Positions 563 through 9,837 of a stretch of DNA of 12,847 bases are shown here, one piece after another. The stretch comes from Deltaproteobacteria bacterium RBG_13_61_14 (GTDB taxonomy: Bacteria; RBG-13-61-14). The stretch is taken from NCBI GenBank assembly GCA_001797815.1, contig MGQK01000041.1, positions 24,035 through 36,881 of the forward strand, read 5' to 3'. The notes beneath the pieces are model-generated. The model was not told the DNA's origin. It did no database searches and worked only from the letters and a program-made list of their open reading frames with translations. Numbering within the stretch: the first letter of the stretch is position 1; each line of letters opens with the position of its first letter. The position numbers were made by a program, and so were the translations under genes.

Positions 563-591
563 CGAATTAAGTAAGGTGTCTCCCGAATTCC
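563..591 (-). repeat. Dispersed repeat copy 1 (GGACACC..TTAATTCG family)
   Basis: On the minus strand it reads GGAATTCGGG, then AGACACCTTACTTAATTCG. It lies just downstream of the AT-rich membrane gene, whose stop is at 604-606, in the sense direction of that gene. It is the inverted partner of the copy at 1124-1161: after a shared 10-base start the two differ by an 8-base insertion, one 1-base gap and one substitution. Confidence 0.7.
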
Positions 592-603
592 GAAGTTTGG
601 TAA

Positions 604-1065
604 TTATGAATTGCCCTGATCTTTAACGAGTAAGTTGATATATTCAGCTGCTCTTTGAGCATCGCGACTGAAAAATGCTGGAACCTCAACTTCATTAAAT
701 CTATTAATATTCAAAATCTTGATTGTTAAAATACTTTGCTTAGACCAAGAAGAGTCATAATCAGCTGATAGAACATCTTTTATATTAATTTCTTGCCACG
801 TTAGGCGTATAAGCCGAGCTACTAAAATTCTATTATTCTCTATCTTTAGGAAAGAAGCTTTTATTATAAAATGATGAAAATATACAGGAAGAAATATAAG
901 CAGTGTTAAGCACCCTCCAGCCAATATTACGTTTATCCAATAATAACCGCTTTTTTCACTCAATGCCTTGAATATTCCCCCAACTGCAATTATTAAAAAA
1001 CAAAATGTCCACGCAGTAATAAAAAGGATGCCAAGAAGTGGATTAATAATAAATCTGGTATTCAT
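604..1065 (-). CDS. Small two-TM membrane protein with PH-like C-terminal domain, AT-rich
   Basis: 153 residues, function unknown. Two strongly hydrophobic segments (about residues 8-32 and 42-66) form a membrane hairpin. A soluble C-terminal part (about 72-150) has alternating beta-like stretches and a final helix (RDAQRAAEYINLLV). This arrangement resembles small bacterial membrane proteins with a PH-like domain, such as the STM3941-like or bPH groups, but no diagnostic motif is visible. The gene is much poorer in GC than its surroundings; the row 841-900 is 22% GC, so recent acquisition is likely. The ATG at 1063-1065 is chosen because an in-frame TAA lies four codons upstream. There is no Shine-Dalgarno sequence; an extended -10 box ends 8 nt before the ATG, so the mRNA may be leaderless. 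Inverted repeats flank it at 563-591 and 1124-1161. Confidence 0.7.
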   Translation of the reverse strand: MNTRFIINPLLGILFITAWTFCFLIIAVGGIFKALSEKSGYYWINVILAGGCLTLLIFLPVYFHHFIIKASFLKIENNRILVARLIRLTWQEINIKDVLSADYDSSWSKQSILTIKILNINRFNEVEVPAFFSRDAQRAAEYINLLVKDQGNS

Positions 1066-1073
1066 GAGAATAA

Positions 1074-1082
1074 ATTATACCA
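1074..1082 (-). promoter_or_regulatory. Extended -10 promoter for the AT-rich membrane gene
   Basis: On the minus strand the sequence is TGGTATAAT, a perfect TGnTATAAT extended -10. No good -35 hexamer is seen 16-18 bp upstream, which extended -10 promoters tolerate. The box ends 8 nt before the ATG, so a start about 7 nt downstream would fall at or next to the start codon. Confidence 0.6.
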
Positions 1083-1123
1083 AATTATTTAAAGCTGGGC
1101 CATCTTCTCGACTAAATTGGAAT

Positions 1124-1161
1124 GGAATTCGGGAAATTGGGAGGACACCATACTTAATTCG
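1124..1161 (+). repeat. Dispersed repeat copy 2, inverted partner of copy 1
   Basis: It reads GGAATTCGGG, an 8-base insertion AAATTGGG, then AGGACACCATACTTAATTCG. Together with copy 1 it brackets the AT-rich gene as a 599-bp unit (563-1161). It is the only copy in the window that does not follow a stop codon of a recognisable gene. Confidence 0.7.
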
Positions 1162-1380
1162 CCATTTTAGAAGTCGGCGTGAGTTTTTGAAGAGGCGGCC
1201 GCTACTGAAAAAGCGATTAACAGGAGCAAGATCGGAGATGGAGTTGGAAGCAGAAGACCAGGGGCAGGGTCGTTGGAGGAATTCCGGGTCGAAAGCAGGT
1301 TCTCTGGGTTGGCCGGCATCCAGGTCTTGATTGGGGGAACCTTCTCTCATGGCGGTTTTGACCTCTTCCAAGGCAAAGTC

Positions 1381-1409
1381 ATTATGGAGTAGGGGAAAAG
1401 GGATGTCAA
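1381..1409 (-). promoter_or_regulatory. Strong sigma70-like promoter without an obvious gene
   Basis: On the minus strand TTGACA (1409-1404) is followed by a 17-bp spacer and CATAAT (1386-1381), giving 11 of 12 consensus bases at ideal spacing. It points left, into a region without a convincing CDS. It may be the relict promoter of a lost element, or may drive a small RNA or distal transcription of the AT-rich gene. Confidence 0.45.
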
Positions 1410-1423
1410 GAAAAAAATGCAAT

Positions 1424-1451
1424 GGTTCGTGGTTAGCGGTTGGTGGTTCGT
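1424..1451. repeat. Heptamer tandem array, four units (GGTTNGT)
   Basis: Four consecutive 7-bp units: GGTTCGT, GGTTAGC, GGTTGGT, GGTTCGT. It is a short degenerate heptanucleotide repeat of the STRR kind and directly abuts the REP-like hairpin at 1455. Confidence 0.65.
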
Positions 1452-1454
1452 GAA

Positions 1455-1484
1455 CCCACCCTCGCCGAAGCGAGGATGGGCTAC
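1455..1484 (-). repeat. REP-like hairpin (c)
   Basis: On the minus strand it is GTAG (1484-1481), then arm CCCATCCTCGC, loop TTCG and return arm GCGAGGGTGGG, with one A/C mismatch. It has the same GTAG-foot architecture as the pair at 375-441 but a different stem. The TTCG tetraloop is an especially stable type in RNA. Confidence 0.6.
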
Positions 1485-1561
1485 AAGGAGGATGAGCAAC
1501 TCTTCGAAAGAAAGCCTCTTTTCCTTTGGGACCGTCTCAAACCTTCAGCCTTGTGTTTTCT

Positions 1562-1589
1562 GTCTAAAGTCCGATGCCTCATGTCTGAT
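1562..1589. repeat. Degenerate heptamer tandem array, four units (GTCTGAT)
   Basis: GTCTAAA, GTCCGAT, GCCTCAT and GTCTGAT follow each other without gaps. Period and copy number match the array at 1424-1451, but the unit sequence differs. It lies in the non-coding region upstream of the phosphodiesterase promoter. Confidence 0.5.
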
Positions 1590-1669
1590 GCCTTTTCCCC
1601 CAGCCTCAGGCCCCAAGCCTTGCTTATCAGCGTCCTTGTCCCGGGTCTGGGCGGGATTGGCGAAAAAAG

Positions 1670-1697
1670 TGGACAATTCGGGATTTTGCATTACAAT
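1670..1697 (+). promoter_or_regulatory. Candidate promoter of the phosphodiesterase operon
   Basis: TGGACA (1670-1675) and TACAAT (1692-1697) are each one base from the sigma70 consensus, with a 16-bp spacer. Transcription would start near 1704, leaving a leader of about 40 nt before the GTG at 1747. The site supports a start well downstream of the ATG at 1417. Confidence 0.5.
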
Positions 1698-1746
1698 TGA
1701 ATTGAAGAAAATTGAGGCCTTTTCCGGCTATCCCGATTCCTGTCAG

Positions 1747-3942
1747 GTGAACACTTTGCCAGCTACATATCGCTCCGGCTTGAAATGGGCGGCGCTGGGC
1801 CTGGGTCTGGCGCTCCTGCTTCCGTTTTCGGCCTCGGCCTACATCGGCCCGGGCGCCGGCTTCGCCATCCTCGGCTCATTCATGGTCTTTTTCTTCGCCT
1901 TTGTGGCCGCGGTGCTTTCGATGCTGATCTGGCCGGTGCGGGCGGTTTACCGTTTCATCCAGGTGCGGCGGCTGGGGATCAAGCCGCAGGTGGACCGGGT
2001 GGTGATCCTGGGGCTGGACGGGCTGGACCCGAAGCGGGCGCAGAAGCTGATGGACCAGGGCAAGCTGCCTCACTTCCAGGCGCTCGCCGGGCAAGGCTCT
2101 TTCTCGAACCTGGCCACCACCTATCCGGCGATCTCGCCGGTGGCCTGGTCCACTTTCGCCACCGGGGTCAATCCCGGCAAGCACGCCATCTTCGACTTCC
2201 TGATGCCGGACCGCAAGACCTATCTGCCGGTGCTCAGCTCCACCCACATCGGCAAGATGGACCGGGTGCTCAAGCTCGGGCGCTGGCGCATCCCGCTCGG
2301 CCGGCCCGAGATCCGGCTCCTGCGCAAAAGCGTCCCCTTCTGGAAGATCCTGGGCGACCACTGGATCTTCTCGCACGTGCTGCGGGTGCCGATCACTTTC
2401 CCGCCGGAAAAATTCTACGGCGCCGAGCTCTCGGCCATGTGCGTGCCCGATCTCAAAGGCTCGCAAGGCACCTTTACCTTTTACACCACCGCGGCCGGCG
2501 ATAAGAAGCACACCGGCGGGGTGGAGATCAAGCTCGAGCGCCACGGCAACGGCTTCTGCGCATACATCCCCGGCCCGGAGAACTCGCTGACCGAGAAGCA
2601 GGAAGAGCTGCGCATCCCGTTCACGCTTGCCAGGAACGGGAAGATTTCACGCAAAGACGCAAAGGTGCAAAGACGCAAAGGGATCGGTGCTGTTCAACTT
2701 GGACGGCAGGAGGGAAAGAACTCGGGCTTTGACCTGAAGCTGCCCGACCGGACGCTCCACCTGGAGGTCGGCAAGTTCTCCGGCTGGGTGCCGCTCTGCT
2801 TCAAGGCGGGCCTGGGCATCAAAGTGCGGGGCATTGCCCAGTTCCGGCTGCTGCGCACCGAGCCGGAGGTGGAGCTGTATCTCTCGCCCGTGCACCTGGA
2901 CCCGGAAAGCCCGGCCATGCCCATCTCGCATCCTTCCATTTACTCCATGGTCCTGGCCAAGCTCCAGGGGCCTTATGCCACCCTGGGCCTGGCCGAGGAC
3001 ACCTGGGGCCTGAACGAGCGGGTGCTGGATGAAGACGCCTTCCTGGAAATGACCTACACCCACCATGCCGAGCGGGAGACCATGTTCTTCCATGCGCTCC
3101 GCCGCACCCGCCAGGGCGCGTGCGTGTGCGTGTTCGACGCCACCGACCGGATCCAGCACATGTTTCATCGCTACGAGGAGGCCGCTCATCCGGCCAACGC
3201 GGGCAAGGATACAAAAAAGCATAAGCAGGTGATCGAGGACTTGTATGTGCGGATGGATGACCTGGTGGGCCGGGTGATGAAGGAGATGAAAAAGCGCGAC
3301 GTGCTCCTGGTCGTCTCCGACCACGGTTTTGCCAGCTTCGCGCGGGGCGTCAACCTCAACTCCTGGCTGTGGAAGAACGGCTACCTGGCCTGCCAGGACG
3401 GAAAGGGCAGCGGCGAATATTTCAAGGAGGTGGACTGGTCCAAGACCCGGGCCTATATGCTCGGCCTGGGCGGGATCTATTTGAACCTCAAGGGCCGCGA
3501 GGCGAAAGGGATCGTGGAGCCGGGCGCCGAGGCCGACGCCCTTCGGAAAGAACTCGCGGCCAAGCTCCAGAAGCTCCCTGACGACAAGCGCGGCGCAATT
3601 GCAATCAACGATGCCTTCCTCGGGCCCGACGTCTTCCACGGTCCCTACCGCGATCAAGGCCCGGACCTGGTCATCGGCTACAACCTCGGCTACCGCGCCT
3701 CCTGGGAAGGCGTGCTCGGCGTGGTCAACGACGTGGTCTTTGACGACAACGAGAAGAGCTGGAGCGGCGACCACTGCGTGGACCCGCGGCTGGTGCCGGG
3801 CGTGATCTTTTCCAACCGGAAGATCGAGGCCCGCGATCCGGGCCTGATTGACCTGGCGCCCACGGTGCTCCGGCTGTTTGATGTTCCGATTCCCCAGCAT
3901 ATGGACGGCAAGCCGCTGTTCGAAGTGGATCGTGAAGGATGA
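1747..3942 (+). CDS. Membrane-anchored alkaline phosphatase superfamily phosphodiesterase/phosphatase (COG3379-like)
   Basis: 731 residues with GTG start. A signal-like segment (11-30) ends in ASA before AYIGPGAGF, and a second hydrophobic stretch (38-63) precedes RAVYRFIQVRR, so the catalytic part is probably extracytoplasmic and membrane-tethered. The type I phosphodiesterase/nucleotide pyrophosphatase fold is shown by the complete two-metal set: D91 (LGLDGLD), nucleophile S130 (ISPVAWS), D467 and H471 (DATDRIQH), D525-H526 (SDHGF) and H676 (SGDHC). Substrate is unknown; phosphodiester, phosphomonoester or lipid head-group targets are all possible. Residues about 297-322 are absent from the paralogous next gene and contain a translated octamer repeat (ISRKDAKVQRRKG). 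The frame is open back to 1417, but that extension encodes heptamer arrays and a REP hairpin, and the promoter lies at 1670-1697, so I reject it. The Shine-Dalgarno sequence is weak (CAGG); TTG at 1780 is an alternative. It overlaps the next gene by ATGA. Confidence 0.87.
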   Translation: MNTLPATYRSGLKWAALGLGLALLLPFSASAYIGPGAGFAILGSFMVFFFAFVAAVLSMLIWPVRAVYRFIQVRRLGIKPQVDRVVILGLDGLDPKRAQKLMDQGKLPHFQALAGQGSFSNLATTYPAISPVAWSTFATGVNPGKHAIFDFLMPDRKTYLPVLSSTHIGKMDRVLKLGRWRIPLGRPEIRLLRKSVPFWKILGDHWIFSHVLRVPITFPPEKFYGAELSAMCVPDLKGSQGTFTFYTTAAGDKKHTGGVEIKLERHGNGFCAYIPGPENSLTEKQEELRIPFTLARNGKISRKDAKVQRRKGIGAVQLGRQEGKNSGFDLKLPDRTLHLEVGKFSGWVPLCFKAGLGIKVRGIAQFRLLRTEPEVELYLSPVHLDPESPAMPISHPSIYSMVLAKLQGPYATLGLAEDTWGLNERVLDEDAFLEMTYTHHAERETMFFHALRRTRQGACVCVFDATDRIQHMFHRYEEAAHPANAGKDTKKHKQVIEDLYVRMDDLVGRVMKEMKKRDVLLVVSDHGFASFARGVNLNSWLWKNGYLACQDGKGSGEYFKEVDWSKTRAYMLGLGGIYLNLKGREAKGIVEPGAEADALRKELAAKLQKLPDDKRGAIAINDAFLGPDVFHGPYRDQGPDLVIGYNLGYRASWEGVLGVVNDVVFDDNEKSWSGDHCVDPRLVPGVIFSNRKIEARDPGLIDLAPTVLRLFDVPIPQHMDGKPLFEVDREG
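2649..2680 (+). repeat. Octamer tandem array (ACGCAAAG x4) inside a CDS
   Basis: Four units, ACGCAAAG, ACGCAAAG, GTGCAAAG and ACGCAAAG, sit inside the phosphodiesterase gene and encode most of SRKDAKVQRRKG. The unit is 8 bp, so the array does not preserve frame by period; it stays open because this stretch lacks stops. The paralogue at 3939-5972 has no counterpart, which points to insertion into a surface loop. Confidence 0.75.
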
Positions 3943-5972
3943 GGACGATGAAGCAAGGCTGGCGGCTTTGGGCGATGATCTGGATCGGCCTGATCCTCGG
4001 CCTGGGGTTCAGCGCTTGCAAGAAAAAAAATTCGGAAACCGGCAAGCGGGTGATCGTGCTGGGCATTGACGGCATGGACTTGCGTCTGCTGAAGCAGTTG
4101 CTGGCCGAGGGAACCATGCCTCACTTCCAGCGCCTGATCCAGGAGGGCGGTTTCCGGCCGCTGGGCACCAGCATCCCGCCGGAAAGCCCGGTGGCCTGGT
4201 CCAATTTCATCACCGGCATGAACCCGGGCAGGCACGGCATCTACGACTTTATCCATCGGGACCCGCAAAAGAAGCTGGACCTGTATCTCTCCACCTCCCG
4301 CACCGTGGACCCGCCCGAGAGCAAAAGCTTTACCCTGGGCGATTACGTGATCTGGCTGGCCGGGGGCAAGGTGGAGTTGCTCCGCGACCAGCGGCCGTTC
4401 TGGGACTATCTGGCGGAGCGGGGGATTCCGGTTACGGTCTATAAAATTCCGGCCGAGTTTCCGCCCGAGGCGGGCAAGGCGCGGGTGTTTTCGGGCATGG
4501 GCACGCCGGACATCCTCGGGACCTACGGCACCTTTTCCTATTACACCGACAATCCGCCGGCCAACGCCAAGGAGGTGAGCGGCGGCGACGTTTATCCCAC
4601 TTTCCCCAAGAACGGGGTCGCGGAAATGGTGCTGCACGGTCCCAAGAACACTTTCAAGCTCGATCCCAAGAAGCCTTACCTGCGCTCGGGCCGGGGCAAG
4701 CAAAGAAATTACGCGAAGGCGGAGCTTAAGTTCCGGGTTTATCTCGACCCGGAGAACGCCGCGGCCAAGATCGAGATCGGCGACGCCGAGCTGGTCTTGA
4801 ACCAGGGGGAGTGGAGCGGCTGGGTGCCGATCGAGTTCGAGCTGGTGCCGCGCCTGCTTCATCTCCCGGGCATGGTCCGCTTTTATTTGCAAGAGGTGCG
4901 GCCGGATTTCAAGCTCTACGTGAGCCCGATCAACCTGGACCCGCTGGACCCGGCGCTGCCGCTTTCCAACCCGGCCGATTACGCGGAGGAACTGGGCGAG
5001 GCGGTCGGGCGGTTTTACACCCAGGGGATTTCCGAGGACAACAAGGCGCGGAGCCACAACATCCTCAACGATGACGAATACTGGCAGCAGAGCCAGGACG
5101 TGCTCGCGGAAAGCTGGAAGCTCTACCATTATCACCTCGACCATTTCGACCGCGGGCTCCTCTTCTTCTACTTCTCGGCCCTGGACCTGGGCCAGCACAT
5201 GTTCTGGCGCCTGCACGATCCGACCTCGCCGGCCTGGGACGCCGAGGCCTCGGCCCGCCTGGGAGACCCCATCCGCCGGCTCTACTTCCAGATGGATGAA
5301 GTCCTGGCCACGGCTCTCCAGCGCGTGGACCCGAACACCACCCTGATCGTGATGAGCGACCACGGGTTTGCCCCGTTCAACCGGGCCTTTCAACTGAACT
5401 CCTGGCTCCTGGACAACGGCTACCTTTACCTGCGCGACCGGAGCAAGCGCCAGGAGACCGAGTATTTTGACCACGTGGACTGGGGCCGGACCCGGGCTTA
5501 CGGCTTGGGCATCAACGGGCTTTATTTGAATTTGTATGGCCGGGAGTGGAGCGGGATCTTCATGCCCGGCGCCGAGAAGGAAGAGCTTCTGCGCGAGCTT
5601 AAGCAAAAACTCGAAGCAGTGGTGGACCCGGCCACCGGAGAACACCCGATCAAGGTGGTCTACCGGGCGGACCAGGTCTATCAGGGGCCGCACGTGGAGA
5701 AAGTGGCGCCGGACCTGATCATGGGCTATGCCTATGGCTGGCGCGCCTCCTGGGAGACCACCCTGGGCGAGTTTCCCCAGGGATGGTTTTCCGACAACAA
5801 GGAAGCCTGGTCCGGCGACCACTGCATCGCCGCCGAGGAAGTGCCGGGCGTGCTGGTGACCAACCGCCAGATCCAAGCCGAGAGCCCGACCCTGATGGAC
5901 CTGGGTCCGAGCATTTTGAAAGAGTTCGGGATCGAGCCGCCCGAGCAGATGGAAGGGAAGCCCGTTTTCTAA
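3939..5972 (+). CDS. Lipoprotein alkaline phosphatase superfamily phosphodiesterase/phosphatase, paralogue of the preceding gene
   Basis: 677 residues from ATG 3939, which overlaps the previous stop as ATGA. ATG 3948 is equally plausible because GAAGG and GAGG lie upstream of it. The N-terminus (about residues 10-27) is a lipoprotein signal with candidate lipobox GFSAC, lipidated Cys27 and then KKK; Phe at -3 is unusual. The catalytic set is complete: D44 (LGIDGMD), nucleophile S83 (ESPVAW), D416 and H420 (DLGQH), D474-H475 (SDHGF), H628 (SGDHC). It is clearly related to the upstream protein throughout, with shared motifs such as SGWVP, SPxxLDP, NSWLxxNGYL and YDF-type segments. This looks like a tandem duplication followed by divergence in anchoring, one copy as TM protein and one as lipoprotein. 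Substrate unknown; translational coupling suggests balanced expression. Confidence 0.87.
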   Translation: MRTMKQGWRLWAMIWIGLILGLGFSACKKKNSETGKRVIVLGIDGMDLRLLKQLLAEGTMPHFQRLIQEGGFRPLGTSIPPESPVAWSNFITGMNPGRHGIYDFIHRDPQKKLDLYLSTSRTVDPPESKSFTLGDYVIWLAGGKVELLRDQRPFWDYLAERGIPVTVYKIPAEFPPEAGKARVFSGMGTPDILGTYGTFSYYTDNPPANAKEVSGGDVYPTFPKNGVAEMVLHGPKNTFKLDPKKPYLRSGRGKQRNYAKAELKFRVYLDPENAAAKIEIGDAELVLNQGEWSGWVPIEFELVPRLLHLPGMVRFYLQEVRPDFKLYVSPINLDPLDPALPLSNPADYAEELGEAVGRFYTQGISEDNKARSHNILNDDEYWQQSQDVLAESWKLYHYHLDHFDRGLLFFYFSALDLGQHMFWRLHDPTSPAWDAEASARLGDPIRRLYFQMDEVLATALQRVDPNTTLIVMSDHGFAPFNRAFQLNSWLLDNGYLYLRDRSKRQETEYFDHVDWGRTRAYGLGINGLYLNLYGREWSGIFMPGAEKEELLRELKQKLEAVVDPATGEHPIKVVYRADQVYQGPHVEKVAPDLIMGYAYGWRASWETTLGEFPQGWFSDNKEAWSGDHCIAAEEVPGVLVTNRQIQAESPTLMDLGPSILKEFGIEPPEQMEGKPVF

Positions 5973-6009
5973 ATCACCTGCCGCTGAGCCTCCAGCGGTT
6001 GGGTGAGTG

Positions 6010-6016
6010 AAGGAGG
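6010..6016 (+). promoter_or_regulatory. Shine-Dalgarno that fixes the GTG start at 6024
   Basis: AAGGAGG is a full anti-16S match, spaced 7 nt from GTG at 6024. It rules out the ATG/GTG-rich upstream codons from 6003 as the true start. Confidence 0.75.
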
Positions 6017-6023
6017 AGCGACC

Positions 6024-6215
6024 GTGTTTGAACCCAAGATCAAGATTTCCAAGGAGTTGTATGCGCGGGTGAAGAAGTTTGCGGAGCTGGCGGGTTATTC
6101 GTCGGTGGACGAGTTTGTGGCCCACGCGCTGGAAAAGGAAGTGAAAGCGCTGGAGGGATCGGACTCGGAAGAGGAGATCAAGAAGAAGCTGCAGGGGTTG
6201 GGTTACATTTCCTGA
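6024..6215 (+). CDS. 63-residue ribbon-helix-helix-like small protein
   Basis: Starts at GTG 6024, set by an ideal AAGGAGG. The N-terminal KIKISKELYARVKKFAELAG, then YSSVDEFVAHALEKEVKAL, fits a short beta strand followed by two helices, as in Arc/MetJ/CopG ribbon-helix-helix proteins, which bind DNA as dimers. It could therefore be an autoregulator or an antitoxin-like protein, but no toxin gene is adjacent. The acidic linker DSEEE leads to a C-terminal IKKKLQGLGYIS. From memory of the families, a similar L-x-x-LGY tail ends many sulfatase and phosphodiesterase-type proteins, so an alternative role is as a small partner of the two upstream hydrolases. Fold is moderately supported; function is inferred only. 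Confidence 0.65.
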   Translation: MFEPKIKISKELYARVKKFAELAGYSSVDEFVAHALEKEVKALEGSDSEEEIKKKLQGLGYIS

Positions 6216-6218
6216 AGA

Positions 6219-6253
6219 GTGAAGTGTGAAGGGTGAAGGGAGAAGGGTGAAGG
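6219..6253 (+). repeat. Heptamer tandem array (GTGAAGG x5) containing the next gene's ribosome binding site
   Basis: Five 7-bp units in register: GTGAAGT, GTGAAGG, GTGAAGG, GAGAAGG, GTGAAGG. The last unit plus the next A gives GAAGGA at 6249-6254, a Shine-Dalgarno spaced 6 nt from ATG 6261. Every unit is Shine-Dalgarno-like, so slippage could change the number of ribosome landing sites. Confidence 0.7.
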
Positions 6254-6260
6254 ATAAGAG

Positions 6261-7115
6261 ATGATCGCGGTGGTGACTTATATCCAGCGGGCGATTGACC
6301 TGGCCATGAATCCCTTGGACCGGCTCGGGCCGGCCTGGGGGATTATCGTCAGCTCGGTGGTGGTGACCGCGCTGGGGCTGGTCATCTACAAATACACCTC
6401 GAACCAGGACGGGATCAAGCAGGCCAAGGAAAAGATCAAGGGCCATTTCTTCGAGGTCTGGCTCTACATTGACGACCTCAGCCTGATCGCTCGGGCCCAG
6501 GGCGGGATCTTCAAGCAAGGCGGCCGTTACCTCGCCTATGCCCTGGTGCCGCTCCTGGTCATGCTGGCGCCGGTGATGCTGATCCTGATCAACCTGGAAT
6601 TCCGCTATGACTATCGGCCGTTCCGGCCCGGGGACGAGTTTTTGGTGAAGGTAGAACTGAAGGGTTCGGCCGTGGCCCAGCTCAACAACCTGAAGCTCAC
6701 GTTGCCCGACGGCGTCGCTTTGGCCGCCGGGCCGGTGCGGATTTCCTTTCGCGACCGGCGGCAGCGGGAACTGGACCGGATGGAAGCCGACTGGCGGCTG
6801 CGGGTGGAGAAAGAAGGCACCCTGCCGCTCCGCTTCAAGCTGGGAGAGAGCTTGGCCGCGGAACAGCCGCTTTATGCGGAAGCCAATGGCCGGCCGCGGC
6901 TCGACCCGGTGCGCTCCGCCGACTTCGCCACCGCGCTCTGGTATCCGCCCCTGATGGCCTTGCCGGCCTCTTCGCCCGTCCAGGAGATCCGGGTGGACTA
7001 TCCCCAGGCCGATGTCTCTTTTTTCGGCTGGGAGACCTGGTGGGTGTGGCCGTTCCTGCTGGTGATGCTGGTCGCCGCGTTTTTATTGCGCGGCCTGATC
7101 GGCGTCGAGTTCTAA
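6261..7115 (+). CDS. Oxa1/YidC-superfamily-like (DUF106/EMC3-TMCO1-type) membrane protein
   Basis: 284 residues. TM1 (about 25-44) is followed by YKYTSNQDGIKQAKEKIKGH, a charged helix of the kind seen in DUF106/EMC3/TMCO1 proteins. TM2 (about 91-112, LAYALVPLLVMLAPVMLILI) leads to the amphipathic YDYRPFRPGD. A beta-rich, probably extracytoplasmic domain (about 122-255) is followed by a C-terminal TM (about 260-278) and a very short tail. The family includes membrane insertases and chaperones, which would suit an operon whose other products are membrane-anchored; that link is inference. It is the last gene of the unit and is followed within 5 nt by a hairpin-forming repeat. It could instead be an unrelated membrane protein that only resembles DUF106 in its N-terminal half. 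Confidence 0.6.
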   Translation: MIAVVTYIQRAIDLAMNPLDRLGPAWGIIVSSVVVTALGLVIYKYTSNQDGIKQAKEKIKGHFFEVWLYIDDLSLIARAQGGIFKQGGRYLAYALVPLLVMLAPVMLILINLEFRYDYRPFRPGDEFLVKVELKGSAVAQLNNLKLTLPDGVALAAGPVRISFRDRRQRELDRMEADWRLRVEKEGTLPLRFKLGESLAAEQPLYAEANGRPRLDPVRSADFATALWYPPLMALPASSPVQEIRVDYPQADVSFFGWETWWVWPFLLVMLVAAFLLRGLIGVEF

Positions 7116-7118
7116 TTT

Positions 7119-7142
7119 GGGGACACCCTACTAAATTGATCG
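7119..7142 (+). repeat. Dispersed repeat copy 3, sense-oriented after a stop codon
   Basis: GGGGACACCCTACTAAATT begins 3 nt after the TAA of the membrane protein gene (7113-7115). It is the most diverged copy in its second half. It faces copy 4 across a 9-nt gap. Confidence 0.6.
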
Positions 7143-7171
7143 CCTCCCCATCGAATTAAGGATGGTGTCCC
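7120..7171. terminator. Hairpin between convergent genes, possible bidirectional terminator
   Basis: GGGACACC (7120-7127) pairs perfectly with GGTGTCCC (7164-7171). Further AATT/AATT pairing lies inside, and the segment is flanked by TTT on both sides. It fills the 61-bp gap between two converging genes. There is no long U tract, so it may block or stabilise transcripts rather than act as a classical terminator. Confidence 0.4.
7152..7171 (-). repeat. Dispersed repeat copy 4, sense-oriented after a stop codon
   Basis: On the minus strand it reads GGGACACCATCCTTAATTCG and begins 5 nt after the TAA of the dehydratase gene (7177-7179). It pairs with copy 3. Confidence 0.7.
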
Positions 7172-7176
7172 TTTAA

Positions 7177-8622
7177 TTAAATTCCCAGGAGCCGCTTGGC
7201 CAGATCCATTTTCCCCTCAAGGTCGCCCTGCCGTCCGATCATGATCCGCTGGGCGGCGGGCGGACCGGCGCCGTGCATGGACTCAATCAGATAGGCCACT
7301 GCCCCCGCGCCGGCCACCAGGTTCTCGATCAACCGGAGCACCTTCATCCGCGCCTCCACCTCCGCGACCGGCGCGGCCGCCAGATACTTGCGGAGCAGCG
7401 GTCCGGCGGAGGGGTCGGAGAGGTCGGCCGCGGGGGGCATGGTCCCCAACAGCCCGCCGGCGATATCCGTGGCCAGGCGCGCCAGCTCATAGGGGAAGCG
7501 GGTGACATTCAGTTTGCAGACGTTGGCAAGGAGCAGGTTGATTTCGTAGTTGCCGGCCGCGGTAGGGTGGCCGAGGGCGGAGCAGGCGATCCCGCAGGCG
7601 AACATGGTCTCGTTGAGGTGGATCATCTCGACCAGCTTGTCCTTGATGTGGGAGGCTTGGTCGGTCCCGTTCAGGCGCGCGATCAGGGCGGAGGCGCCGA
7701 TGAGCACGTCGCCCACTCCCACTTTGCAGCCGCCGTAACTCTGGCGGTGATAGCCGGCGAAACGCTCGACCAGTTTTCCCGACTGGTCCGTCTCCCCGCA
7801 CAAGAACACCCTTTCCTCAGGCACGAACACGTCTTCAAAGACGGTCATCACTTCCTGGCCGCCGAACTCCGGGTTGCCCACGTCCAGCCGGCCCGGCTCG
7901 AGCTTGCGGGTATCGCTTACCTGGCGGCCGTAGAAGTGGCGGATCCCCGGGGCGTTGGTCGGGACCGCAAAGCACACCGCCCAGTCCTCCTCCCCCGGCC
8001 GCATCGCCACTGTGGGCATGACCAGGACCTCATGCGAGTTCAGCATTCCGGTCTGGTGGAGTTTGGCCCCCCGCACCACGATCCCGCCCGGCCGGCGCTC
8101 AACCACCCGGAGATACAGGTCCGGGTCTGCCTGGTCCTTGGGCCGCTTCGAGCGGTCGCCCTTGGGGTCGGTCATGGCGCCGTCCACCACCAGGTCATGC
8201 TTCTGGATCATCGCCCAGTACTCGCGGAAGCGGCCGTGGTAGCGGGTGCCGTGGCCGGCGTCGCATTCGTAGGTTACTGAAAAGACGGCGTTGGCCGCGT
8301 CCATGCCCACACAGCGCTGGAAGCAGCAACCGGTAACGTTGCCGCACAGCCGCTGCATCTGGATCTTCTTGACCAGATCCTCGGCGCTTTGGTGGAGATG
8401 GGTGAAGCGGTTGATCGCGTCGCCGGTAAGGCTGGATTCGGCGGTGAGCAGGTCCTTGGCCTCCGGACTCTGCGCCAAGTCATAAGTCGCGGCCACCGCC
8501 CGGGTCGAGGGCGCGACCAGCGGGTGTCCCGGCAAATCCTCCGTCAGTCGGCCGTGGACCATGGCGCAAAGCCCCAGCTCGCGCAGAGACTTCAGATATT
8601 CCTCGCCGGTTTTTAAGGCCAT
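7177..8622 (-). CDS. abfD: 4-hydroxybutyryl-CoA dehydratase / vinylacetyl-CoA delta-isomerase
   Basis: 481 residues, close to the family's roughly 490. It is a flavin and [4Fe-4S] enzyme of the 4-hydroxyphenylacetate 3-hydroxylase-like fold that converts 4-hydroxybutyryl-CoA to crotonyl-CoA. All four cluster ligands known from the Clostridium aminobutyricum enzyme are present: C100 and C104 (CFQRC, here one residue further on), H292 and C299 (YHRQSYGGCK). Y296, K300 and E257 fall at the positions I recall as active-site residues, and E447 (IESMHGAG) probably serves as the C-terminal glutamate. This separates it from flavin-only monooxygenases, which lack the cysteines. The ATG at 8620-8622 follows GGAGGGG. 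Pathway partners (4-hydroxybutyrate CoA-transferase, 4-hydroxybutyrate dehydrogenase) are not in the window. It may be co-transcribed with the foldase gene 69 bp upstream. Confidence 0.9.
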   Translation of the reverse strand: MALKTGEEYLKSLRELGLCAMVHGRLTEDLPGHPLVAPSTRAVAATYDLAQSPEAKDLLTAESSLTGDAINRFTHLHQSAEDLVKKIQMQRLCGNVTGCCFQRCVGMDAANAVFSVTYECDAGHGTRYHGRFREYWAMIQKHDLVVDGAMTDPKGDRSKRPKDQADPDLYLRVVERRPGGIVVRGAKLHQTGMLNSHEVLVMPTVAMRPGEEDWAVCFAVPTNAPGIRHFYGRQVSDTRKLEPGRLDVGNPEFGGQEVMTVFEDVFVPEERVFLCGETDQSGKLVERFAGYHRQSYGGCKVGVGDVLIGASALIARLNGTDQASHIKDKLVEMIHLNETMFACGIACSALGHPTAAGNYEINLLLANVCKLNVTRFPYELARLATDIAGGLLGTMPPAADLSDPSAGPLLRKYLAAAPVAEVEARMKVLRLIENLVAGAGAVAYLIESMHGAGPPAAQRIMIGRQGDLEGKMDLAKRLLGI

Positions 8623-8666
8623 GGCTCCCCTCCGGGAACAACATATTTATCTCGGCATCCACCGGC

Positions 8667-8688
8667 CGAATTAAGTATGGTGTCCCCC
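8667..8688 (-). repeat. Dispersed repeat copy 5, sense-oriented after a stop codon
   Basis: On the minus strand it reads GGGGGACACCATACTTAATT, then CG, starting 3 nt after the TAA of the foldase gene (8692-8694). It is the copy closest to the apparent consensus. It stands alone without an inverted partner, in the gap between two co-oriented genes. Confidence 0.7.
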
Positions 8689-8691
8689 TTT

Positions 8692-9837
8692 TTATTCCGG
8701 CGGGTTGTCCTGGACCGGGGCCTCGGAAGCCGATTCCGGAGTTGACTCCGGGGCCGCCTCGGTGCCCGGATGGCCGGGCGGCAAGTCGGTGGGTTGTCCC
8801 ACTCCCATCTGCTTGGCCGCGTCGGAATAGGTGATCGTGGCCGCCCCCTTGAGCTCGGTCAGGTAATTTTCAAACGCGCCCCGCTCTTTCTGCTGCTGCA
8901 TCTGCTCGCGGATCTGATCTTTGACTTCCGCCAGCGGCGGCAGACCGGCCGGCTTTTGGTCCGTCTTCTTGATGATGTGATAGCCGAACTGGGTCTCGAC
9001 CACGCCGCTCAACTGGCCCAGCTTCAGCGCGAAGACGGCGTCTTCAAACGGCTTGACCATCTGGCCCCGGGGGAAATAGCCGAGGTCGCCCCCTTGCTGC
9101 TTGCTGGGGCAAGTGGAGGATTGCTTGGCCAGCTCCGCGAAATCGCCGCCCTTTTTCAGTTGGGCGAGGATATCTTCGGCCTGCTTTTTCTTGGCGGCCT
9201 TGGTCTCGTCCGTGTCCTTTTCATCGAACCCGATCAGAATATGGCTGGCCCGAATCGTCTCGGGATTGGTCAGCATCTCCGGATGGCTTTCGTAAAATTT
9301 CTGGACGTCCTCGTCGGTCACCGCGACCTCCTGCCGGGTATGGAGGGTCACCAGTTTCTGCATCATCATCCCCTCCGCGATTTCCTGGCGCAGCTTGGCT
9401 TCATCCAGGCCCAGCTCTTGCAGCCTCTGGGTGAAAGTTTCCGGCGAGGGGAATCCCTGCCGGATCTCGTTCATTTCTTTCTCCACCTCCTCCAGGGAAG
9501 CGGCAATGCTCTCTTTGACCGCCGCCTGCTTAAGCAGAATCTGGGTGATCAGTGATTTCAGCGCCAGCGGATCCAGCATGGCATGGTATTGACTCTGCTG
9601 CTCGGGGGTGTCGGGAATGCCCCGTTGCCGGGCAATCAAGTCCGCCTGGTGATCCATCTGGTTGCGGGTAATCCCGGTTCCGTTCACCGTGACCAGGACC
9701 TCGCTGGTATCGGCTTCCCCGGTTTTCGTCCCGGACTCGGAGGTCGAGCGGGGCGGCGCCAGGTAATGGACGCCCACAACGGCCGCGACAATTCCCACGA
9801 CCAGCAACAGAGCCAGGACCACGATCGCCTTTTTCAT
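8692..9837 (-). CDS. Membrane-anchored parvulin-type peptidyl-prolyl isomerase (SurA/PrsA-like)
   Basis: 381 residues. An N-terminal hydrophobic segment (about 4-23) acts as uncleaved anchor or signal and is followed by a Ser/Thr-rich linker. A SurA_N-like chaperone domain (about 46-170) begins VLVTVNGTGITRNQMD. A PpiC/parvulin rotamase domain (about 194-293) carries the landmarks ASHILI, GGDLGYF, FEDAVFAL and FGYHIIK. A helix (about 300-335) and a Pro/Glu/Ser-rich tail (345-381) complete it. The family catalyses prolyl cis-trans isomerisation and assists folding of exported proteins in the periplasm. The ATG at 9835-9837 follows AAGGAG at good spacing. A near-consensus promoter lies about 120 bp upstream. 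There is only one parvulin domain, unlike SurA, which usually has two, so I do not assign the name surA. The disordered tail is unusual. Confidence 0.88.
   Translation of the reverse strand: MKKAIVVLALLLVVGIVAAVVGVHYLAPPRSTSESGTKTGEADTSEVLVTVNGTGITRNQMDHQADLIARQRGIPDTPEQQSQYHAMLDPLALKSLITQILLKQAAVKESIAASLEEVEKEMNEIRQGFPSPETFTQRLQELGLDEAKLRQEIAEGMMMQKLVTLHTRQEVAVTDEDVQKFYESHPEMLTNPETIRASHILIGFDEKDTDETKAAKKKQAEDILAQLKKGGDFAELAKQSSTCPSKQQGGDLGYFPRGQMVKPFEDAVFALKLGQLSGVVETQFGYHIIKKTDQKPAGLPPLAEVKDQIREQMQQQKERGAFENYLTELKGAATITYSDAAKQMGVGQPTDLPPGHPGTEAAPESTPESASEAPVQDNPPE

Follow-up and report, generated by a model that had tools for sequence, protein, structure and literature searches.

What is the short repeat that recurs between the genes of this locus, and why do several of its copies lie directly behind stop codons? 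The stretch of DNA analysed here, referred to as the window, comprises 12,847 nucleotides of contig MGQK01000041.1 (positions 24,035 to 36,881) from Deltaproteobacteria bacterium RBG_13_61_14. The first-pass annotation of this window described five copies of the motif and considered either an RNA signal at the 3' ends of genes or a mobile sequence with a target preference or a tolerance for stop-adjacent sites.

Copies of the repeat in the window

The features to which we refer in the following are, with TIR standing for terminal inverted repeat:

565 to 582, minus strand: single TIR copy GAGACACCTTACTTAATT, outer AATTCGG at 583-589, pointing away from gene 604-1065
604 to 1065, minus strand: AT-rich gene (32% GC, 153 aa) between two outward-facing TIR copies
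1142 to 1159, plus strand: single TIR copy AGGACACCATACTTAATT, outer AATTGGG at 1135-1141, pointing away from gene 604-1065
6261 to 7115, plus strand: host membrane protein gene (284 aa), stop overlapping the 7113-7178 hairpin
7113 to 7178, no strand assigned: complete hairpin (MITE/REPIN-like), TAATTTG-GGGACACCCTACTAAATT-(16 nt)-AATTAAGGATGGTGTCCC-TTTAATT, between two convergent genes
7120 to 7137, plus strand: left TIR arm of the 7113-7178 hairpin
7154 to 7171, minus strand: right TIR arm of the 7113-7178 hairpin
7177 to 8622, minus strand: host HpaB gene (4-hydroxyphenylacetate 3-hydroxylase family), stop overlapping the 7113-7178 hairpin
8634 to 8694, minus strand: eroded hairpin between two tandem genes, with an intact arm at 8669-8686 (minus strand) and a diverged partner arm at 8634-8651

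All five copies are present where they had been described. Four of them match GGGACACCATACTTAATTCG with at most three mismatches (none expected, and none of 200 shuffles reached four), and the fifth, more diverged copy at 7120-7137 is GGGACACCCTACTAAATT, which differs at two of 18 positions. The short distances to stop codons that had been given for three copies are likewise correct: the 7119 copy begins 3 nt past the TAA at 7113-7115 (plus strand), the 7154-7171 copy (minus strand) begins 5 nt past the TAA at 7177-7179 (minus strand), and the 8669-8686 copy (minus strand), if its extra GG is counted, begins 3 nt past the TAA at 8692-8694 (minus strand). A fourth copy, 565-582 (minus strand), indeed lies behind gene 604-1065 in the sense direction, at 21 nt from its stop, and the 1142-1159 copy (plus strand) has no gene upstream in sense. 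The region 7120-7171 is a single hairpin element and not two separate copies as first counted; its outer AATT ends overlap both flanking stops (TAA 7113-7115, plus strand, and TAA 7177-7179, minus strand), and its fold has z scores of -2.9 and -3.2. The eroded hairpin at 8634-8694 folds with an MFE of -24.4 kcal/mol (z -3.7). The copies at 565-582 and 1142-1159 point outward around the one AT-rich gene at 604-1065, whose product had no match in Pfam, PADLOC or PHROGs, and an Rfam search of the window and 13 repeat-rich loci gave no match.

Other repeats also occur in the window. A separate MITE with the TIR GAGACTATCTCAAAAC lies at 339-470, directly after the stop of a ParA/NUBPL gene (336-338), and ends of this type have 22 matches in the genome, mostly paired about 114 nt apart. 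Repeats of the CACGCAAAGACGCAAAGG type are found at 512-540 and at 2641-2681, the latter in frame within the first phosphodiesterase gene.

The repeat is an element end

The genome is a draft assembly of 4.74 Mb in 132 contigs with 61% GC, in which genes were called with a simple home-made caller that recovers the window genes; the closest genomes for comparison belong to the same order only. Genome-wide, the 20-mer has 65 matches at up to three mismatches, as compared to none for a reversed control. The conserved unit exceeds the motif that was first noted and reads AATT-nn-G-GGGACACCATACTTAATT-C. Its outer AATT keeps the same spacing (positions -7 to -4) in 57 of 72 copies of this genome and in 103 of 220 from elsewhere. 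When copies are compared pairwise, homology on the inner side starts exactly at the motif, and homology on the outer side is absent, except for self-overlapping neighbours and two or so further pairs, including one that adjoins paralogous genes. As homology is thus, with few exceptions, restricted to the inner side, the motif is an element end, namely the TIR AATTnnG-GGGACACCATACTTAATTC of a TIRYT element, i.e. an element with a RAYT-like Y1/HUH transposase. TIR pairs that face inward at a distance of 11-21 nt form hairpins (fold z -2.9 to -7.9), and in total the genome contains nine hairpins, one of them eroded, and about 50 single copies.

The exact 19-mer was found in at least 107 stretches from many phyla (Nitrospirae, Deltaproteobacteria, Alphaproteobacteria, Planctomycetes, Elusimicrobia, Dehalococcoidia, Armatimonadota and others), and two relatives of the same order contain no TIR copies. 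A text search for the exact motif strings gave no match in the papers covered. Another genome, G037, which belongs to a different phylum, has 13 copies, mostly of the variant GGGACACGATACTTAATT, and at E 1e-20 no transposase of the clade described below was detected in it.

A cognate transposase

Of the 19 Y1_Tnp (PF01797) matches in the genome, one belongs to an intact element: a 221-aa gene on contig C46 that is bounded on either side by inverted TIR copies. The linkage to RAYT genes that the first-pass annotation had proposed to look for therefore exists, in the form of a cognate RAYT-like transposase with the motif at both ends. The C46 protein contains the motifs MPNHVH, LWQG and RYIELNP, and scores 77 bits with the NCBIfam model of the REP-associated tyrosine transposase (NF047646), below the curated cut-off of 80. 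Its gene terminates with a TAG inside the right TIR (AAT TAG GTATGGTGTCCCC). Six relatives in genomes of other phyla, 58-68% identical in the aligned part, adjoin the same TIR, and in four of these seven elements, C46 included, the transposase stop lies within the right TIR. Transposases at 44-49% identity are accompanied by other repeats (GGGGACAACTACC, AGGGACAGCGCCC, AGGGACAGCCACC, GGGACAGGCCCC), and those of 290-330 aa with about 40% identity mostly by GGGGTCAG repeats. TIR and transposase change together. With this, a sequence of 18-25 nt, found in identical form in many bacterial phyla, is recognized as the end repeat of a TIRYT element and tied to its transposase.

About a dozen further TIRYT elements exist in this genome (L033-L046), most of them with GGGGTCAG-type TIRs. 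In most of these the right TIR overlaps the transposase stop, and several start at most 14 nt after an upstream stop.

Placement of paired elements on stop codons

The inward-facing elements comprise the nine hairpins (eroded one included), three longer MITEs and the full C46 element. In 12 of these 13, a sense stop is found no more than 11 nt from the GGG. The thirteenth (C22:13761-13812, L076) is a hairpin that lies in frame inside a membrane-protein gene, to which it adds about 22 residues (IRGTPYLIPHDSKQLSMVSPKF). In 682 kb of unselected sequence that served as background, the share of sites equally close to a stop is 2.7% for intergenic positions in general and 7.2% for intergenic AATT. 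If the eroded hairpin is left out, AATT-targeted random insertion between genes (7.2%) would place at least 11 of 12 elements this close with a probability of 3e-12. An AATT-based null alone therefore fails to explain the data, and finer targeting or selection must contribute.

A gene that reads into AATTAA could simply stop there, and the C-termini of host gene products were therefore compared with relatives for truncation. The 284-aa membrane protein aligns with its relatives to the last residue, the C125 host gene product also ends at the same residue (0 aa), the C99 host gene ends one residue earlier than its relatives, and HpaB is 8 residues shorter than its relative. As all four genes differ by these amounts only (0, 0, -1 and -8 aa), the inward-facing elements are located at native stops or beside them. 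In C4, C99, C110 and C125, the host gene terminates at an AATTAA or AATTAG that belongs to the element.

Stop adjacency is a property of paired elements and not of the motif. For single copies, the outer neighbours are oriented in sense in 23 and in antisense in 28 cases, without any stop or sense preference, and a stop within 10 nt is found in only 4 of 53. The interpretation as a mobile sequence with a stop-adjacent target or tolerance thus holds for the inward-facing copies (12 of 13 within 11 nt) and fails for the single copies. As a general rule for the motif, stop adjacency has to be abandoned, since the even distribution of orientations that the first-pass annotation had named as speaking against it is what is seen for the single copies, which are the larger class. 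At 110 loci elsewhere, tight stop adjacency is weak, with 7 sense and 4 antisense hairpins within 10 nt and 17 and 6, respectively, within 30 nt.

Could the motif nevertheless be a 3'-end RNA signal, i.e. a terminator or an mRNA-stabilizing hairpin that is selected after stops and whose mobility is incidental? Strongly folding hairpins right after stops in sense agree with this, and the 7113-7178 hairpin would serve convergent genes on both strands. But single, unpaired arms that prefer neither stops nor the sense orientation make up more than two thirds of the copies, the sequence behind the hairpins is CCCGAATT or CCCTTTAATT and not the U-run of an intrinsic terminator, one copy lies in frame within a coding region, and the same sequence bounds transposase genes in other phyla. 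We therefore regard this explanation as very improbable. The hairpins would be transcribed and fold, but a dedicated RNA signal is unnecessary to account for them.

Single copies and their AT-rich neighbours

Most single copies have no partner, and the explanation proposed below accounts for them only as decayed ends. The flanks of single copies are asymmetric, as GC content drops by 15 points outward of the copy and by 7 points inward (Wilcoxon p 2e-5). For all copies taken together, 22 of 60 distinct outer genes have less than 45% GC, compared to 20 of 523 unselected genes, which is an excess of about 9-10x (odds ratio 14.6, Fisher p 4e-13). The AT-rich genes that border single copies are probably foreign. 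Several belong to defence families (loci L060, L061, L077, L080, L053, L059 and L082), and the families represented among the AT-rich neighbours are FRG, CAP12/TIR, SIR2, AIPR/AbiU, PD-Lambda-1, PDC-S06, PDC-S54 and AAA/HEC-04. An enrichment of defence genes could not be shown, with 8 of 20 AT-rich neighbours versus 2 of 10 other AT-rich genes (p 0.42). In unselected regions, the TIR core is found near 4 of 24 AT-rich genes as compared to 60 of 660 (p 0.27). Two AT-rich genes (L067, C46:41340-42776, and L074, C110:3561-4784) are paralogues of each other; each is next to a TIR element that marks the boundary with the stop of a host gene, and the host gene is a different one in the two cases.

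It may be asked whether outward-facing TIR pairs delimit cassettes with AT-rich passengers, in which case single foreign genes would be moved by the system as well. There are twelve or so outward-facing pairs, most of them around AT-rich genes, and the excess of AT-rich outer neighbours described above would be expected. In C46 and C125, moreover, the AT-rich gene lies between two TIR elements, and a host stop is found on the far side of each. However, an AT-rich border was looked for and is absent in other phyla (p 0.66), no empty sites were found, and a preference of the elements for AT-rich targets beside foreign genes would give the same pattern. When the synteny of the AT-rich islands was examined in two relatives, a homologue of the downstream host gene was absent from the examined flanks. 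On balance, such cassettes appear unlikely. The more far-reaching idea that TIRYT ends are borders of portable single-gene cassettes, formed by outward-facing TIR pairs or by two flanking TIR elements, which bring AT-rich passengers, many of them for anti-phage defence, into GC-rich genomes via stop codons, is in our view quite unlikely; if it were true, landing on stop codons would leave host operons intact. The link of single ends to AT-rich, partly defence-like genes in any case bears on the question of gene capture by HUH transposases.

Two further interpretations of the sequences on the inner side were rejected. For integron attC sites, no core sites could be seen by eye. As to mobile promoters, several inner flanks of single copies contain good sigma-70 promoters, which fit remnants of the region upstream of the transposase gene.

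A proposed mechanism

Very probably, the motif represents the ends of a TIRYT-type family (TIRtrons), whose hairpin derivatives lie on host stops, with the stop being re-created. The intact element consists of one gene for a Y1/HUH tyrosine transposase of about 220 aa between inverted AATTnnG-GGGACACCATACTTAATTC copies, with the gene ending in the right repeat (AAT TAA GTATGG TGTCCCC), as seen in four of seven elements. Internal deletions would give rise to derivatives, mostly hairpins of 50-70 nt and a few of 190-300 nt, which most likely spread in trans by the transposase acting on the single-stranded hairpin. That a Y1 enzyme recognizes the TIR hairpin in single-stranded DNA is inferred from what is known about the TnpAY1 family. 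Those derivatives that have persisted in this genome lie on host stop codons, where the outer AATTA(A/G) re-creates an in-frame stop, so that the gene keeps its native or near-native length and the element becomes 3' UTR.

Stop adjacency would result either from target choice (AATT or stop region) or from selection after insertion, and the exact insertion boundaries are inferred. The AATT flank may be a sign of target choice: at 61% GC, AATT is scarce except in AT-rich spots, and stop regions provide some of these sites. In case of selection, insertions near genes would be purged unless the stop is rebuilt. The target rule, be it AATT, the stop region or selection, is now directly testable, and the system represents a clear case of miniature elements that lie on stop codons, rebuild the stop, and are hence tolerated by their hosts.

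Comparison with known systems

The C46 element resembles IS200/IS605 elements in its Y1 HUH catalytic motifs, its small size and the hairpin at its left end. It differs from them by YIELNP in place of YxxxQ, by true terminal inverted repeats, and by the lack of tnpB. In analogy to REPIN/BIME systems with GTAG-class RAYTs, there are inverted-dimer hairpins, a Y1 protein that probably mobilizes in trans, and ends that supply stops. Are the copies thus canonical REP/REPIN elements that are moved by a GTAG-class RAYT? The RAYT-like Y1 protein, the inverted dimers and the intergenic placement would agree with this, and element ends that supply stops have been reported for GTAG REPs (PMC3733652). 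But the single unit is non-palindromic and carries no GTAG tag: a GT[AG]G foot of a palindromic unit is absent, neither GTAG nor GTGG being found, and positions -7 to -4 are, in most copies, the above-mentioned AATT. Moreover, the NHVH, WQ and YIELNP motifs assign the transposase to subclass 2.1, for which GTAG REPs were not found. This possibility is therefore hardly credible, and membership in GTAG REPs as well as in IS200/IS605 (subclass 1.1) was rejected, as the defining tests failed.

TnpAY1 enzymes of subclass 2.1 are characterized by NHVH, W[EQ] and YIELNP and a length of about 220-240 aa (PMC6006769), and the C46 protein has all three motifs and 221 aa, as compared to near 238 aa; a C-terminal helix-turn-helix domain is also among the membership features of this subclass. 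No REP-like sequences were detected by Quentin et al. (2018) in the vicinity of subclass 2.1 genes (PMC6006769), whereas in the present genome the TIR is scattered, alone and as dimers, in 65 copies. Most TIRtron enzymes fall into this subclass according to the same study (PMC6006769). TIRtrons and their enzymes, the TIRYTs (TIR-associated tyrosine transposases), were named by Di Nocera et al. (2013), who described the common core GGGGWSAS, TIRs that may overlap the 3' end of the gene, and a dispersal of TIRs as single, dimeric and grouped repeats (PMC3733652). By sequence, all TIRYT features tested here fit: a Y1 transposase gene between inverted TIRs is found in the C46 element and its relatives, GGGGACAC in the TIR matches GGGGWSAS, and the TIRs are dispersed as single and dimeric repeats. 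What distinguishes the present family from described TIRtrons is that its hairpin derivatives lie on stop codons, and that its 19-mer spans many phyla.
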